Assembly: GCA_030591745.1 (NCBI GenBank) | Contig: JAUVAM010000330.1 | Span: forward strand, 1-5,313 | Direction: 5' to 3' | Length of the DNA stretch: 5,313 bases | Origin: Deltaproteobacteria bacterium | GTDB taxonomy: Bacteria; Myxococcota; B64-G9 | Shown: in pieces, positions 1 through 5,313 of the stretch | Position numbering within the stretch: the first letter of the stretch is position 1 | How the letters are laid out: each line of letters opens with the position of its first letter | Program-made: the position numbers and the translations under genes | The notes under the pieces: generated by a model | Databases searched by the model: none | What the model saw: only the letters and a program-made list of their open reading frames with translations | Told to the model about the DNA's origin: nothing

Positions 1-900
1 GGCCTCCCTGCAACGCGCATCTCCATCTCGAGCCGCCTCTTCGATATCTCGGCGATCCGAAAAGCGGCCCGTTAGCCCCTTGAGGCCGCTCTCCTTATTC
101 AGGATTCGATCCATGTCGGCGGCCGGCAGATTCTCGGCCCTCATGACGAAAAGCGGGATGGCCGGATCGATGGAGCCCGAGCGGGTGCCCATCACTAGGC
201 CCTCTAAGGGCGTGAAGCCCATGGAGGTGTCGACGGAACGACCACAGCAAACCGCGGCCGCCGACGCCCCATTGCCGATGTGCAGGGTCACGAGACGCAC
301 CGAATCGTAAGCGCGTCCCAGCAAGGCCGCTGCCCGGTGGGCCACGTAAAGGTGGCTTGTGCCGTGGAAACCATAGCGACGGATGCCGTGCTTTTCATAC
401 CAAGCATAGGGCACGGGGTAGAGATAGTCTTCCGGCTCCAGTGTTTGATGGAAGGCTGTGTCGAAGACGGCCACGTGGGGAATGTCGGGCAGCAAGGCCT
501 GGGCCGCCCGAATACCGGCGAGGTTGGGCGGGTTGTGCAGAGGCGCTAAGGCGCTGAGGTCTTCCAGGGTCTTGATGAGTTCTGGCGTGACGCGGGCCGA
601 GTTGGCGAATTTGTCTCCGCCGTGCACGGTGCGATGGCCCACAGCCTGGATGGCGGTCAAATCGGACACGGGTGAGTCGTCCCCATCGGTCAGGACCTTG
701 AGCACCAGGGCCACGGCTTCCGTGTGATCGGCGCAGGCATGCGCGATGCGGGTTTCTTTTTCGCCGTGTTTGAGTTTCAGGATGCTTTCGTCTGAACCCA
801 CCCGCTCAACCAGGCCGCGGCAAAACAAGTCGCCGTCTTTCGGAGAATAGACCGAGAATTTGACCGACGACGAACCGCAGTTCAGCGTCAGAATGCTCAT
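1..900 (-). CDS. ackA: Acetate kinase, C-terminus cut off by the window edge
   Basis: Cytoplasmic enzyme of the ASKHA fold that interconverts acetate + ATP and acetyl phosphate + ADP. Run forward with phosphotransacetylase it activates acetate; run in reverse it makes ATP from acetyl-CoA. The reading frame starts at the ATG at 900-898 and stays open for 300 codons to the window edge. Known acetate kinases have about 400 residues, so roughly the last 100 are missing. Visible hallmarks are the N-terminal LTLNCGSSSVKFSVY, GHRTVHGG (residues 88-95), LHNPPNL, VAVFDTAFH (143-151), RRYGFHGTSH (174-183), HIGNGAS (207-213), VDTSMGFTPLEGLVMGTRSG and SDRRDIEE. Residues N7, R90, H122, D147, H179, N210 and R240 match the substrate-binding and catalytic positions known from the Methanosarcina enzyme with a constant offset of one. 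A small variation is GTRSGSIDP where many homologues have GTRSGDIDP. The start overlaps the stop of the upstream transporter gene. The frame has no internal stop. Confidence 0.96.
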   Translation of the reverse strand, partial: MSILTLNCGSSSVKFSVYSPKDGDLFCRGLVERVGSDESILKLKHGEKETRIAHACADHTEAVALVLKVLTDGDDSPVSDLTAIQAVGHRTVHGGDKFANSARVTPELIKTLEDLSALAPLHNPPNLAGIRAAQALLPDIPHVAVFDTAFHQTLEPEDYLYPVPYAWYEKHGIRRYGFHGTSHLYVAHRAAALLGRAYDSVRLVTLHIGNGASAAAVCCGRSVDTSMGFTPLEGLVMGTRSGSIDPAIPLFVMRAENLPAADMDRILNKESGLKGLTGRFSDRRDIEEAARDGDARCREA

Positions 901-911
901 GCCTCTTCCTT
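897..911 (-). promoter_or_regulatory. ATGA stop/start overlap with ackA ribosome binding site
   Basis: On the minus strand, ATGA at 900-897 contains both the ackA start (900-898) and the transporter stop TGA (899-897). AAGGA (911-907), inside the transporter's last codons, lies 6 nt before the ATG and can serve as the ribosome binding site. This geometry is typical of translational coupling and fixes the ackA start. No terminator or promoter-like gap lies between the genes. Confidence 0.85.
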
Positions 912-3098
912 TTTCTCTCCCTTGTTTTCTTCATTTTCACTCGCCAATTGCCAGGCCGCGCCTTTTCGCGCGAGGAGATAGCAAGCAAAGCTCAGCAGAA
1001 CGAGCATGCCCAGACTGATGAGTTGTCCTGGTGCTCCCTTGAACCAAGCAGCAGGCTCATGCTTGAGCACGGGTTCCCCATGTACTTCCACCAGGGTGAA
1101 ATCCACGCCCACGGAAATGTAGCGGATGAGGGCGCCCAGTTTGGGCAAGCGCAGGGCCGCGGCCAGAATACCGAAGAGGGCCGCGCCCGCCATCATGCCT
1201 GATGCGATGAGGGTGCCCTGGGCCGCTCGGGCACGGCGCACCTTTTCGCTTCCTCCCGTTTTGCTGATGATCAAGGCGCAGATCGCGCCGGCCATGACGG
1301 CCATGTTGATGGAGATGGGCAAGTACATGCCCAGGGCAAAGGCCAGCATGGGCACACCCGCCATGAAGAGCAAGAAGGCGACGATGCCACCCATGCAGTA
1401 CATCAGCCAGGGTTGGCTGGAGGGATCGGACATGAGCCCTTTGGACACGGCGGCGATCATGTTGGCCTGGGGCGCGGGCAGCACCTCTTCATTGGAGATC
1501 ATGAGGCCGGTGGCCGGATCCTGAATCAGAAAGTGGTAAGCATCGTCCATCACGGGGATGACGACCGCGACGACCAGGGCGGCCACGACCACGCCCAAAA
1601 ACTTCCAGCGTTCTTGGTTGCGCGGGGTTGAGCCGATCCAGTAGCCCACCTTGAAGTCGGAGACCAAAGCCCCAGAGGTGGACAGGGCCGTGCAGACCGC
1701 CGTGCCCACGATAAGCGAGATGATCATGCCCGCCATGCCCGAGAGACCGGTGAGGATCATGGCGCCGATGGCCAAGACCACGGTGATCAAGGTCATGCCC
1801 GAAACGGGGTTGACGCCCACGATGGCGATGGCCTGGGCAGCTACGGGGGTGAAGAGGAAGCTGAGCAGGAAGCCCACCACCATGCCCACCACGGCGAACA
1901 ATACGCTGTCGCCGAGGGGGTAGGTCGCTTCGGAGCCGGGGGCCATGGGGGTGACGACCGAGACCAGGAAGAACAACAAGCCCATCCCCAGGGCTCCGAG
2001 AAGCTGGATGAGCAGGACGTTCTTGGGGTTCATGTCCATTTGCCATCGCTCTTCGCTGGCCGTGCCGTCGGCTTTGCTGGTCAAGCCTTTGAATCCCAGG
2101 GTGACCGAGCTCGCCACGATCTTGCCCATGCGCAGGATGCCGATGAGGCCACTGATGGCGATGGCACCGATGCCGATGGGCTTGATGAAGGCGGAAAAGA
2201 TTTGTCCAGCGCTCATGGAGCCGATGTCAAAAAGGTGACCCGCGTGGTAGGCGCCCAGGGGCGCGTCTTTGCCGAAGGTGTAGACCAGGGGCACCATCAC
2301 CACATAGGCCAGGACCGAGCCGGAGGCGATGATGGATGCGTAGCGGATGCCGATGATGTAGCCCAGCCCAAAGAGGGCGGCCAAGCCCGCGATTTTGATC
2401 TCAATGCGTATATCTGCCAGGTAGCCGCCCACGTCGCCGAGGACCATCGAGCTGGAGATACCAGAGTTCCACAGATGCAGGCCTTCGACCATGAAGTCAT
2501 AGCCCGCACCCAACAGAAAGCTCAGGATCAATATTTTGCCGGCACCGCCGATGTTGGATTCGCCGGTGACCAGCACTTCGTTGATGGCCGTGGCCTCGGG
2601 GAAGGGCAAATCCCCGTGCAGGTCTTTGACGAAGTACTTGCGCAAGGGGATGATCAGCGCAATGCCCAAAAAGCCGCCGAAGGTGCAGGCGAAAAAGATT
2701 TGCCACCAGGACACGTCCAGCTGATTGATGTAGAGGGCCGGGATGACGAAGGTGGCACCCGCGGCCACCACGCCCGACGCCTGGCCGATGCTCTGCACCA
2801 TGACGTTTTCCAGGATGGTGCTTTTGACCCGCCGCATGCCCCCGAAAAAGATGGCCAAGATGGCGATGGGGATGGAGGCCTCGATGCCGTTTCCCGCCCG
2901 GAGCGCGATATATACGCAAGCAGCCGAGAAGATGATGACCATGATCAGGCCCAGGCCGACGGACCAAGGGGTGACCTCCGCCCGGCCGTCCGAACTGGGC
3001 ACGATGGGTTTGTAGACCTCTCCCGGCTTGAGCTTGCGATAGGCGTTTTCTGGTAACAGTTTCGTTGCCTTGCTGTTCGAAGGGGCGCTCTGGGCCAT
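897..3098 (-). CDS. OPT-family (oligopeptide transporter) integral membrane protein
   Basis: A complete 733-residue polytopic inner-membrane transporter of the OPT superfamily, which is known to import oligopeptides or metal chelates with protons. The substrate of this bacterial subgroup is not well defined and cannot be read from the sequence. A hydrophilic N-terminus (1-43) precedes many hydrophobic segments, for example about 44-66, 73-86, 131-151, 236-272, 362-383, 398-425, 434-470, 499-516, 566-610, 628-648 and 692-710. The tail SENEENKGEKKEEA is highly charged. Family signatures are YIALRAGNGIEASIPIAIL (63-81), ILENVMVQSIGQASG (95-109), HGDLPFPEATAINEVL (161-176), VSDFKVGYWIGSTPRNQ (479-495), LPAPQANMIAAVSKG (540-554) and FALGMYLPISINMAVMAG (587-604). 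These fit the prokaryotic subgroup (TIGR00733-like, from memory) rather than fungal or plant OPTs. The ATG start is supported by AGGAGG 5 nt upstream and a candidate promoter behind it. The gene ends in ATGA overlapping ackA, so the two are probably co-transcribed. Confidence 0.94.
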   Translation of the reverse strand: MAQSAPSNSKATKLLPENAYRKLKPGEVYKPIVPSSDGRAEVTPWSVGLGLIMVIIFSAACVYIALRAGNGIEASIPIAILAIFFGGMRRVKSTILENVMVQSIGQASGVVAAGATFVIPALYINQLDVSWWQIFFACTFGGFLGIALIIPLRKYFVKDLHGDLPFPEATAINEVLVTGESNIGGAGKILILSFLLGAGYDFMVEGLHLWNSGISSSMVLGDVGGYLADIRIEIKIAGLAALFGLGYIIGIRYASIIASGSVLAYVVMVPLVYTFGKDAPLGAYHAGHLFDIGSMSAGQIFSAFIKPIGIGAIAISGLIGILRMGKIVASSVTLGFKGLTSKADGTASEERWQMDMNPKNVLLIQLLGALGMGLLFFLVSVVTPMAPGSEATYPLGDSVLFAVVGMVVGFLLSFLFTPVAAQAIAIVGVNPVSGMTLITVVLAIGAMILTGLSGMAGMIISLIVGTAVCTALSTSGALVSDFKVGYWIGSTPRNQERWKFLGVVVAALVVAVVIPVMDDAYHFLIQDPATGLMISNEEVLPAPQANMIAAVSKGLMSDPSSQPWLMYCMGGIVAFLLFMAGVPMLAFALGMYLPISINMAVMAGAICALIISKTGGSEKVRRARAAQGTLIASGMMAGAALFGILAAALRLPKLGALIRYISVGVDFTLVEVHGEPVLKHEPAAWFKGAPGQLISLGMLVLLSFACYLLARKGAAWQLASENEENKGEKKEEA

Positions 3099-3103
3099 GG
3101 CTG

Positions 3104-3109
3104 CCTCCT
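3104..3109 (-). promoter_or_regulatory. Ribosome binding site of the OPT transporter gene
   Basis: The plus-strand cctcct reads AGGAGG on the minus strand, a full Shine-Dalgarno match ending 5 nt before the ATG at 3098. It decides the transporter start. Confidence 0.85.
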
Positions 3110-3143
3110 GGCTTCGGGCTTGGGTTTGTGATGATGGGCAGGC

Positions 3144-3172
3144 AGCCTAGCACAGCCCTTGAGGGGGTTCAA
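3144..3172 (-). promoter_or_regulatory. Candidate sigma-70-type promoter of the OPT-ackA unit
   Basis: On the minus strand, TTGAAC (3172-3167) could be the -35 box. It is followed by a 17-nt spacer and TAGGCT (3149-3144) as the -10 box, preceded by TG in the extended -10 position (TGTGCTAGGCT). A transcript start near 3137 would leave a leader of about 40 nt. The -10 hexamer matches TATAAT at only 3 of 6 positions, so the case rests on spacing, the extended TG and the same element in front of the divergent gene. The region around the -35 contains short palindromes, CCCTTGAGGG (3156-3165) and GGGTTCAACCC (3165-3175), which might bind a regulator. Confidence 0.5.
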
Positions 3173-3210
3173 CCCATGGGAATCAGGGGAGTTTGCCCTG
3201 CGGGGGAGCC

Positions 3211-3239
3211 TGGCACGGTGGCCTGGTTTGTGCTAGGCT
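3211..3239 (+). promoter_or_regulatory. Candidate promoter of the Cys-rich lipoprotein gene
   Basis: TAGGCT (3234-3239) with TG in the extended -10 position (TGTGCTAGGCT) lies 17 nt after TGGCAC (3211-3216), a poor -35 match. The -10 element and spacer length are identical to those of the divergent unit, which is the main support. A start near 3246 would give a leader of about 50 nt. TGGCAC also resembles a sigma-54 -24 box, but no matching -12 GC element follows at the required distance. Confidence 0.38.
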
Positions 3240-3281
3240 AGGGCGCTTGCGCGGTCATGGAGGCCGTGCCGAGGGCAGTCG

Positions 3282-3287
3282 AAGGAG
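3282..3287 (+). promoter_or_regulatory. Ribosome binding site of the Cys-rich lipoprotein gene
   Basis: AAGGAG lies 8 nt before the ATG at 3296. It favours this start over an in-frame ATG at 3257, which would put 13 non-hydrophobic residues before the signal peptide and has no such site at a good distance. Confidence 0.8.
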
Positions 3288-3295
3288 CGTGTCTC

Positions 3296-3361
3296 ATGAG
3301 CAGGTATCTATTTTCCGTGATCATCTCGTTGGCTCTGGGGGCCGTGGCATGGACGGGCTGT
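3296..3361 (+). other. Signal peptide with a non-canonical lipobox
   Basis: MSRYLFSVIISLALGAVAWTGC: Arg3 gives a short positive n-region, residues 5-18 form the hydrophobic core, and A-W-T-G before Cys22 resembles a lipobox. Gly at -1 is standard and Thr at -2 is tolerated, but Trp at -3 replaces the usual Leu/Ile/Val. Gly23 and Asp24 follow, and no Asp lies at +2, so outer-membrane routing is possible under E. coli rules, which may not hold here. If the lipobox fails, signal peptidase I cleavage near Ala16-Ala18 is the alternative. Confidence 0.7.
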
Positions 3362-5313
3362 GGCGATGAAACCGCAGGCAAATGTGCTGTCGATCAGGAA
3401 TACTGTGGTGGCGAGTGTGTTTACACGAGCTCCGACCACGATCACTGCGGCGCTTGTGATCAGGCCTGCATGCCGGGTCAGTATTGCGCCAGCGGTGAGT
3501 GCTTGCCCTGCCAAAACGATTGCATGCTGGGCCAGACCCAGTGCGTGCCGGGCAACCCCAGCCAGACGCAAAGCTGTACCACCGACTCGGACACCTGCAT
3601 GGGATGGGGCGTGCCGGAGAATTGCCCCGGTGGCCAGGTTTGCGCCGAGGGCCAGTGCGTCACGGCTTGTGAAGATGACTGTTCCCGCAACCTGTCCCAG
3701 GTTTGCGATCCGGACGGGGCCAACGGCTATCGAGTCTGTGGTTATCACGATGCAGACGACTGTCTGGAGTGGGGTGCCGTGGAGGATTGCACGGACGGCA
3801 CGGTCTGCGATGGAGGCCAATGCGGCGGTGGTTGTGAAAACGAATGCAACACCGCCGGTGCGCTTCAGTGCTCCACCACGGACAATGGTTTCGTGTCCTG
3901 CGCTGATCACGATACCGACGGTTGTTTGGAATGGGGCGGGTTCACGGCTTGTCAAAGTCCTGAAACTTGTTCCAACGGCGTTTGCTCCGATCCCAGCCAA
4001 TGCCAAGACGATTGCAGCCCCGGAGATCGCGAATGCGACGGCAACTCCTATCGCACCTGCGGCAACTTCGATGCGGACAGCTGTCTGGATTGGTCCACCT
4101 ATACAAATTGCGATCCCGGAGATGTCTGCAACCAGGCCACCGGATTTTGTGAAGCCGAATGCAGCAATCAGTGCACGGCCGGTACGCTGCGTTGCGCCGT
4201 GGACCAGAGCGCGGTGGAATCCTGCGCGGACCGTGACAACGACGGCTGCACCGAATGGGGCACGGCCATTCCTTGCGGGGAGGGGACCCACTGCGAGAAC
4301 AATGCTTGTGTGAGCAGCTGCACGCCGGAATGTACCCAACAAGGTGAGCGGGTTTGCACTACGTTTAACGGTGACCCAGGCTATGAAACCTGTGGCGAGC
4401 ATGATCTGGATCCCTGCCTGGAGTACGGCAATTTCATCGCCTGTCCCGATGGCCAGACCTGCTCCAACGGGGTCTGTTCGGCCACATGCGGGGATGAGTG
4501 CACGAGCATGCAGCGACAATGCCAGGGCAATGCGGTGCAGCTTTGCGGTGAGGCCAACGATGGAGATGCTTGCTTGGACTGGCTGGATCCGGTGGCCTGT
4601 GCGACTTGGCAGCAATGTTTGGACGGGGTCTGCCAGGACGACTGCAACACCCACAACGAATGCAGCACGGAGGGGGCCACGGCTTGCACGGCGGACAACT
4701 CAGGCTGGCAAGAATGCGTCAGCGACTACGACACGGATCCCTGCCTGGAATACGGCGCGGTGACCACTTGTGAGAACAACTACATCTGCGAGAGCGGGGC
4801 TTGCGTCTTAGGCTGTGAGCACGAGTGCACCACATTAAACGCCGTGCAATGCGCCGGCGCCGGCGCGGGTACCGAGACTTGCCAAGATCATGACTCGGAC
4901 GGTTGCCTGGAGTGGGGCGGCTATGTCTCCTGCCCGAACGGTGAGACCTGCTCGCTGGGCGTGTGCGCCTCAACTTGCACGGACGAATGCGACTATGAAT
5001 TTCAGCACGTCTGCGACGGCCTGGGGGCTTACCGGGTCTGCGCCGACAACGACGCGGATTCCTGTTGGGATCTGGGCGATGCCATTCCCTGCGGCTACGG
5101 CGAAGAATGCCAGGCAGCCACCGGGGATTGCGCTGTGGTTTGCACCGACGATTGTGACACCACCGGCGCCTTGCGCTGCAGCGCCGACAACGCGGTAGTG
5201 GAAAGCTGCGCCACAAATTACGACGGCGATGAATGCCGGGAATGGGGCGTCCTGCAGGCCTGCGGCGCGGGCAATGCCTGCTATCTGAATGCCTGCGTCA
5301 GCGAAAACCCGCC
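3296..5313 (+). CDS. Probable secreted lipoprotein with tandem eight-cysteine repeats, 3' end cut off
   Basis: No named family is recognised for the bulk of this protein. The frame is open from the ATG at 3296 to the window edge: 672 codons with no stop. Residues 1-21 form a signal peptide ending in a lipobox-like AWTGC with Cys22 as the likely lipidated residue, so it should be anchored in a membrane and exposed outside the cytoplasm. Residues 30-69 are a Stig1-like Cys cluster. From Cys72 on there are eleven tandem units (R0-R10, the last perhaps incomplete) of 52-57 residues, each with eight cysteines. By my count 97 of 672 residues are Cys. The pattern suggests a rod of small disulfide-bonded modules, possibly metal-stabilised through Asp-rich loops. 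Function is unknown; adhesion, surface structure or protein binding are guesses. It is transcribed away from the transporter-ackA unit and nothing links them functionally. Every unit keeps the same frame and cysteine spacing, which rules out a chance open frame. Confidence 0.93.
   Translation, partial: MSRYLFSVIISLALGAVAWTGCGDETAGKCAVDQEYCGGECVYTSSDHDHCGACDQACMPGQYCASGECLPCQNDCMLGQTQCVPGNPSQTQSCTTDSDTCMGWGVPENCPGGQVCAEGQCVTACEDDCSRNLSQVCDPDGANGYRVCGYHDADDCLEWGAVEDCTDGTVCDGGQCGGGCENECNTAGALQCSTTDNGFVSCADHDTDGCLEWGGFTACQSPETCSNGVCSDPSQCQDDCSPGDRECDGNSYRTCGNFDADSCLDWSTYTNCDPGDVCNQATGFCEAECSNQCTAGTLRCAVDQSAVESCADRDNDGCTEWGTAIPCGEGTHCENNACVSSCTPECTQQGERVCTTFNGDPGYETCGEHDLDPCLEYGNFIACPDGQTCSNGVCSATCGDECTSMQRQCQGNAVQLCGEANDGDACLDWLDPVACATWQQCLDGVCQDDCNTHNECSTEGATACTADNSGWQECVSDYDTDPCLEYGAVTTCENNYICESGACVLGCEHECTTLNAVQCAGAGAGTETCQDHDSDGCLEWGGYVSCPNGETCSLGVCASTCTDECDYEFQHVCDGLGAYRVCADNDADSCWDLGDAIPCGYGEECQAATGDCAVVCTDDCDTTGALRCSADNAVVESCATNYDGDECREWGVLQACGAGNACYLNACVSENP
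3383..3502 (+). other. Stig1-like N-terminal cysteine cluster
   Basis: Residues 30-69 carry cysteines at 30, 37, 41, 51, 54, 58, 64 and 69, around CGGECV, then DHDHCGACDQACMPGQYC and GEC. This spacing (C-GGxC-V, then D-x-x-x-CGxC-xxxC, then G-x-x-C-x-x-G-x-C) resembles the Stig1-type motif that I recall from many deltaproteobacterial secreted proteins. It differs from the repeats that follow: it has no LEWG core and different cysteine intervals. It sits directly after the lipid anchor, as a cap or stalk would. The family assignment is from memory and only moderately sure. Confidence 0.55.
3833..4318 (+). repeat. Higher-order block, copy 1 (units R2-R3-R4)
   Basis: These three units match R8-R9-R10 in order. 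R2 shares CENEC and DHDTDGCLEWGGFTAC with R8's CEHEC and DHDSDGCLEWGGYVSC. R3 has the exceptional six-residue last gap CNQATGFC, matched only by CQAATGDC in R9. R4's TAGTLRC and AVESC match TTGALRC and VVESC in R10. The offset is 325-327 codons. Confidence 0.65.
4814..5313 (+). repeat. Higher-order block, copy 2 (units R8-R9-R10)
   Basis: Second copy of the three-unit block, six units downstream of the first, truncated by the window edge or close to its end. The same offset in R1/R7 gives a weaker match (LEWGAV against LEYGAV), so the duplicated segment may have been about six units long. If so, the sequence beyond the window should begin with a unit resembling R5. Confidence 0.6.

Follow-up and report, generated by a model that had tools for sequence, protein, structure and literature searches.

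A new family of cysteine-rich, probably extracellular modules with a putative calcium loop in bacteria and archaea

The calcium loops of EF-hands, dockerins and thrombospondin type 3 (TSP3) repeats combine an N/D-x-D-x-D spacing with a following acidic residue. Among small disulfide-held domains, CBM14 or peritrophin-A (CHIT1, Avr4 and Blo t 12) is a distorted beta-sandwich with three plus two strands; in the passages available on Avr4, its bridges are given as Cys40-70, 50-56, 64-109 and 86-101, which by order of the cysteines correspond to 1-5, 2-3, 4-8 and 6-7. Cysteine-rich tandem repeats also occur in TraA-type secreted proteins of myxobacteria, for which the TIGR04201 model (22 positions, curated cut-off of 25 bits) was made; passages of PMC3325183 describe three invariant cysteines in that repeat. 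Here, we analysed a DNA stretch of 5,313 nucleotides from a Deltaproteobacteria bacterium (hereafter, the window), the last gene of which encodes a tandem array of cysteine-rich units (Table 1), and compared the array with these systems.

The gene lies in a forward frame (3257-5311) of 685 residues with 98 cysteines, in which ORF analysis found no stop before the window end. ATG 3296 is the likely start, since the leader read from this codon ends in the lipobox-like AWTGC and resembles the leaders of relatives, which close with a hydrophobic stretch and then a cysteine in L025, L029, L031, L051, L017 and L016 (by eye). Acidic residues (D+E) number 118 and basic residues (K+R) 14. The whole protein scored 29.6 bits with NCBIfam NF041328 (C_rich_MXAN6577) over 26-189, against a cut-off of 100, and 3296-3502 alone (leader plus Stig1-like module) scored 40.3 bits; the matching region of homologue P0003 passes Pfam Stig1 PF04885 (27.3 bits, cut-off 24.1). 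This Stig1-like module, absent from an earlier note on the same DNA, is placed directly upstream of the units, between the lipobox and the units.

Table 1. Features of the window, with positions, strand and basis of assignment
Feature	Position	Strand	Basis
Acetate kinase fragment	1-900	-	TIGR00016, 372 bits
OPT-family transporter	897-3098	-	TIGR00733, 214.5 bits
Partial gene, predicted surface lipoprotein	3296..5313	+	ORF and leader comparison; stop not reached
Signal peptide, lipobox-like AWTGC, Cys codon 3359-3361	3296..3361	+	Putative lipid anchor
Stig1-like / MXAN_6577-like N-terminal Cys module (residues 43-82)	3383..3502	+	NF041328 and PF04885 comparisons
Unit 1, 8 Cys	3509..3658	+	C1 at 3509; Cys pattern and profile
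Unit 2, 8 Cys	3668..3823	+	Cys pattern and profile; part of three-unit model
Unit 3, 8 Cys	3833..3985	+	Cys pattern and profile; single-unit model pLDDT 97
Unit 4, 8 Cys	4001..4150	+	Cys pattern and profile; part of three-unit model
Unit 5, 8 Cys	4160..4309	+	Cys pattern and profile
Unit 6, 8 Cys	4319..4477	+	Cys pattern and profile
Unit 7, 8 Cys	4487..4633	+	Cys pattern and profile
Unit 8, 8 Cys, C1-x5-C2	4643..4804	+	Cys pattern and profile
Unit 9, 8 Cys	4814..4966	+	Cys pattern and profile
Unit 10, 8 Cys	4976..5131	+	Cys pattern and profile
Unit 11, 8 Cys	5141..5296	+	Cys pattern and profile; last in window

Residues 85-680 comprise 11 tandem units with exactly eight cysteines each, and consecutive units start 52-57 residues apart. 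In the C-terminal half, the C5-x8-C6 and C6-x5-C7 gaps were constant in 11/11 units, and C7 was followed by x4 (nine units) or x6 (two units); in the N-terminal half, C1 was followed by x3 in 10 units and x5 in one, C2 by x6-7, C3 by x7-11 and C4 by x6-8. D-x-D-x-C was found in all 11 units, and the aromatic place was occupied by W in eight units, Y in two (units 6 and 8) and L in one (unit 10). The earlier note had proposed eleven consecutive eight-cysteine units of about 54 residues, an exceptionless C5-x8-C6-x5-C7 spacing and an acidic-aromatic core around C5, and these proposals were borne out, the exceptions to the core being the L of unit 10 and a G at the E/D place of unit 1. Mutual identity among the units was 27-57% (mean 37%). 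The C-x8-C-x5-C pattern occurred 12 times in the unit region, and 10,000 residue shuffles approached this count (mean 1.8, maximum 11), so that spacing alone is only moderately telling at such a cysteine content. The strong evidence for a repeat family, above the cysteine spacing, is the profile search of homologues.

A protein search with the window protein returned 181 relatives, and a search with the archaeal protein P0063 returned 257, 110 of the best 120 of which were new relative to the first list. The profile search from the eleven window units, which the earlier note had suggested, marked hundreds of units in relatives (957 units in 120/120 proteins, the best 120 of the 181 homologues). 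Units were present in all 230 listed proteins, with 1 to 17 in each. Across 910 full-length units, the cysteine columns were 98-100% conserved, with D26 at 80%, D28 at 89%, W33 at 84% and G48 at 91%. The combined set contained 1,677 distinct units; unit sets left out units below 12 bits or with an incomplete profile match, and a third profile round with 27 seeds only was left unused.

In a scan that covered one genome per species, 192 stretches matched; 168 of them were relatives, of which the best 80 were kept. According to record titles, 11 of the 80 kept loci carry archaeal names (Pacearchaeota, Woesearchaeota, Diapherotrites, Aenigmatarchaeota, Micrarchaeota, Nanoarchaeota or plain archaeon), 10 carry names that we take to belong to Patescibacteria, and most of the others are titled Myxococcota, Myxococcales, Deltaproteobacteria or Proteobacteria. 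Given that most records are metagenome assemblies, some contigs might be misplaced; counter to this, the archaeal record L032 is titled a complete genome, and L011, L040 and L073 lie on archaeal contigs longer than 140 kb. In phylum samples scanned with the unit profile (threshold of E ≤ 1e-6), each containing its own positive seed, units were found in at least 43 of 193 genomes from the phylum of the genome of the window relative, at least 30 of 236 from that of L011 (Pacearchaeota), at least 2 of 239 from that of L070 (Patescibacteria) and at least 3 of 247 from that of L059 (Syntrophales). The family spans bacteria and archaea, including Patescibacteria. The protein search of phage and plasmid records and the DNA search of plasmids found no relative, and none of 50 matches in viral contigs, scanned with a single pattern, was confirmed. 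A rumen genome titled 'Proteobacteria' (G197, locus L012) yielded 78 unit matches. The earlier note had missed the reach into archaea and Patescibacteria.

AlphaFold2 modelled unit 3 alone with a pLDDT of 97.0 and a pTM of 0.75 (110 alignment rows), placing strands at 12-14, 20-25 and 34-40, and modelled units 2-4 with a pLDDT of 92.9 and a pTM of 0.50 (73 rows). The fold of adjacent units, for which the earlier note had proposed such a prediction, was thus confident, and the pTM of the three-unit model makes the unit-to-unit geometry, and hence a rigid stalk, uncertain. A coupling analysis of 1,676 units (effective number 1,528) gave R13-Q20 (z 9.1), R13-W33 (4.4), F25-G34 (3.8) and also G18-P36, couplings that would fit antiparallel pairing of the three model strands. 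The strongest coupled cysteine pair was C1-C5 (z 6.3); other cysteine pairs reached z 5.3 or less, scores of a kind that near-invariant columns can yield.

The disulfide map was read from natural cysteine loss across homologous units. Eight cysteines were counted in 1,502 of the 1,677 distinct units, six in 17, seven in 14 and more in the remainder, where the higher counts arise partly from included flanking residues. Among the 17 six-cysteine units, 13 (in 12 proteins or ORFs) lacked C1 and C5, two lacked C1 and C2, one lacked C6 and C8, and one lacked C6, C7 and C8. Across 1,676 aligned units, both C1 and C5 were present in 1617, neither in 18, C1 only in 2 and C5 only in 39; 32 of these 39 still hold eight cysteines, which indicates shifts in C1 spacing. 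This natural co-loss supports a C1-C5 disulfide inside the predicted unit fold. A C6-C8 disulfide is likewise supported by co-loss in one protein, P0222, where a full unit lacks both residues and, by eye, so does the N-terminally cut unit before it. As C1-C5 and C6-C8 leave four cysteines, and comparison with CHIT1 suggests C2-C4, the remaining bridge would be C3-C7. Such co-loss within the unit fits the small domain with intra-unit pairing that had been suspected from the sequence, and not random pairing. Five of the 14 seven-cysteine units (in P0085, P0094, P0097, P0104 and P0108) have lost C1 and C5 and carry a new cysteine between C7 and C8; all five proteins have a new cysteine after C3 in another unit, as do none of 14 compared relatives, a pattern that suggests an inter-unit disulfide. 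Counting against the proposed pairing, single columns are lost or shifted in the remaining nine, two of which (P0079 141-200 and L068 259-312) lack C5 alone.

The acidic core [N/D]24-x-D26-x-D28-x-C5-x-E32 was kept or lost as a set, with an odds ratio of 125 that is overstated because the units are not independent. D/N26 and D/N28 occurred with E/D32 in 1389 units and without it in 33, E/D32 occurred alone in 64, and none of them was present in 190. Both unit types, with and without the set, were found together in 113 of 325 ORFs, and only the set-less type in two. Residue 24 was N or D in 1001/1389 set-bearing units vs. 17/190 set-less units, the C4-C5 loop was seven residues long in 1208 of 1256 set-bearing eight-cysteine units, and coupling was observed for D28-E32 (z 5.6) and D26-E32 (z 5.5). 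The form [DN]-x-[DN]-x-D-G was read in 214 units. In P0004, Pfam EF-hand_1 reached a total of 27.5 (cut-off 25.4) with no stretch passing singly, and its best stretch (157-170) lies inside a unit (137-186). At the level of the motif, the core therefore combines the D-x-D-x-D spacing, coupled acids and fixed loop length of EF-hand-type loops, and is probably a calcium loop. This reading had escaped the earlier note. The 190 units without the acidic set count against one Ca2+ per unit; 174 of them retain W at position 33, indicating that W33 is independent of the set.

A relative of the locus is L025 (MAG AB_03_Bin_195), with 94% DNA identity to window 1-3741 and 89-90% to two later stretches. 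Its gene copy (5465-7397) is broken among the units and split over two frames, perhaps through assembly collapse of the repeats, and, with 150 of 521 candidates scored, its genome has at least 37 unit matches, spread over eight contigs. The neighbouring OPT transporter is common to L025, L029, L031, L051 and L017. The kinase is matched in part by L025, L029 and L017, and for L031 and L051 the match is confined to the transporter (73-80% DNA identity). In L029, L017, L031 and L051, open frames of 1184-1308 residues have the units followed by a PQQ_2 propeller, which is over the cut-off in three of the four and below it in L017. A lamin-tail match was below the cut-off in three of these frames and absent from L051. 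P0060, which aligns to 17% of the query at 78% identity, has two units, a lamin-tail-like stretch (by eye) that has no Pfam LTD match, and a PQQ_2 propeller.

The best match of a window unit was the same-numbered unit for 10/11 units in L029, 7/11 in L017, 5/11 in L051, 4/11 in L016 and 1/11 in L031. These matches imply an old array whose order persists among close relatives, and not one that is freshly expanding; the unit order is less preserved in more distant orthologues, which counts against an ordered stalk. Elsewhere, units occur together with GH10, M23 peptidase, PG_binding_1, laminin-G, cohesin and thioredoxin-like domains, a company that fits extracellular work and either a stalk or a glycan-binding role. 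Three further architectures were observed. P0109 has sigma-70 region 2 (32.5 bits, cut-off 24), a hydrophobic stretch (by eye) and then four units, and looks like a membrane-tethered sigma-factor-like sensor. A G197 protein combines units with SpoIID and Golvesin C-terminal domains, with a collagen-like match below the cut-off. L073:4909-8022 (Diapherotrites) carries seven units, and its match to the archaeal class III (pilin-type) signal falls slightly short of the cut-off, at 22.8 bits against 23.7.

We lean towards the interpretation that the array is a disulfide-locked, calcium-stiffened stalk of ordered modules that stands on a lipoprotein anchor and presents the propeller. Each unit would be an extracellular domain of about 50 residues, comprising a three-stranded antiparallel sheet and a small C-terminal hairpin. 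Four intra-unit disulfides would hold it, C1-C5 and C6-C8 being indicated by co-loss and C2-C4 and C3-C7 being proposed, and the EF-hand-like loop [N/D]24-x-D26-x-D28-x-C5-x-E32-W would most likely take one Ca2+. The predicted order is a lipoprotein leader, the Stig1-like module and eleven units, followed in orthologues by the lamin-tail-like part and the beta-propeller. Exposed at the surface, such a stiff array could carry the propeller away from the membrane.

It is very unlikely that the units are instead a divergent form of a catalogued cysteine-rich family (TIGR04201, Stig1, EGF, TSP3, DUF4215 or DUF7107). With the window protein, no Pfam family reached E ≤ 1, and among 110 single units drawn from the window and 67 loci, any one family matched at most three, which is the chance level; the best stretches of these catalogued Pfam families lie outside units, with the exception of P0106 161-198, where the end of unit 125-173 is overlapped. 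The window units alone match no NCBIfam family. TIGR04201 gives this alternative some footing, as 12 of the 110 units weakly touch the model (E of 1 or less, 0.0039 at best) and one touches the TraA model (E 0.53). However, the 22 positions of TIGR04201 can cover less than half of a unit, which has 50 positions and eight cysteines against the three that passages of PMC3325183 give as invariant; the model had no match at E ≤ 1 in the window protein or window units, and none of its places listed in genome G001 coincides with a scored unit place. The touch may reflect a shared small cysteine hairpin, probably C6-C8. Stig1, DUF4215 and DUF7107 do occur in unit-bearing proteins, but PF04885 had no profile match over the units in the window protein or the 110 single units, and its matches in P0003 (18-66), P0216 (21-64) and P0218 (22-64) all end before the first unit. 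EGF_CA matched two of the 110 units (Pfam, best E 0.0043), short of an EGF assignment over the units. TSP3, DUF4215 and DUF7107, and likewise CBM14 PF01607, were found neither in the window protein nor among 25 of the 26 families listed for the 110 units. Among PDB sequences, the window protein had no match at E ≤ 1 and the unit profile two small ones (best E 0.024), PHROGs matched 0/110 units at E ≤ 0.001, and titles and passages of open-licence PMC literature, some of them on TraA or outer membrane exchange, yielded no description of the repeat. A strong match to a known domain, named in the earlier note as the result that would speak against a new family, was thus not found in Pfam or NCBIfam, and its view of an undescribed repeat unlike Stig1, EGF or TSP3 is supported. 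The units are a new family of cysteine-rich, probably extracellular module, with the putative calcium loop as an unusual feature.

The 98 cysteines in 685 residues, and a thioredoxin-like domain after the units of P0126, would also be expected of an array whose cysteines are free and serve redox chemistry or heavy-metal binding; yet the export leader, the loss of cysteines mostly as a fixed pair and the near-invariant even number (eight in 1,502/1,677 units) make such an array most improbable. A more serious rival, or an addition with which a stalk can coexist, is that the units are glycan-binding modules of CBM14-like fold, in which case the array could act as a multivalent adhesin or wall binder; this is a tentative possibility. 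More speculative still, and in our view doubtful, is the wider proposal that the CBM14/Fusexin-1 domain IV fold has in the units an extensive prokaryotic branch, still without a name, that gained a calcium loop closed by a disulfide. On this view, the units would build surface arrays that bind glycans multivalently and depend on Ca2+, in Myxococcota, DPANN archaea and part of the Patescibacteria, with exchange among the three. Were the CBM14-like reading true, the units would be prokaryotic relatives of the animal and fungal chitin-binding fold and a lead on the surface equipment of very small archaea. Pfam leaves the repeat block blank in the scanned proteins of the 181- and 257-protein searches, and 1,677 distinct units are now available, together with a fold predicted with confidence, a disulfide map read in part and a putative calcium site that is open to testing.

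Returning to the stalk interpretation, the predicted unit can be compared with known systems. Its nearest fold neighbours appear to be CBM14 chitin-binding domains and Fusexin-1 domain IV, through weak but coherent matches of the model; the absence of other folds from the Foldseek and VIA lists is not evidence against those folds, and Foldseek found no match among viral models at E ≤ 0.001. The earlier note did not include CBM14-like folds. Two CBM14 bridges (CHIT1 420-440 and 450-463) may equal the proposed C2-C4 and the C6-C8 bridge seen in one protein. Equating the Avr4 1-5 bridge with C1-C5 was rejected, because strand positions put C2 and C4 on the matching bridge. Unlike CBM14, the units have another cysteine pattern, a predicted extra C1-C5 bridge and an acidic calcium-like loop, and they stand in tandem, with as many as 17 per protein among the 230 listed; the two share no sequence match. 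Archaeal Fusexin-1 domain IV (7p4l 454-507) is a single domain in a membrane fusogen, whereas the units are tandem; the unit profile did not match Fusexin-1 in PDB sequences at E ≤ 10. Stig1-like and MXAN_6577-like proteins resemble the N-terminal module of the window protein, and the units alone have no such match. With EF-hand, dockerin and TSP3 loops, the unit core has in common the N/D-x-D-x-D spacing and the acidic residue; it differs in that the model has no helices and the loop, which includes C5, is flanked by C4 on one side and a strand on the other. TraA-type repeats likewise form cysteine-rich tandem arrays in proteins that related bacteria secrete, and share with the units the partial TIGR04201 similarity described above. 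They differ in having three invariant and two marginal cysteines rather than eight, and the passages on TraA in PMC3325183 mention no acidic core. By analogy, the units probably work as the TraA repeats do, as a disulfide stalk.
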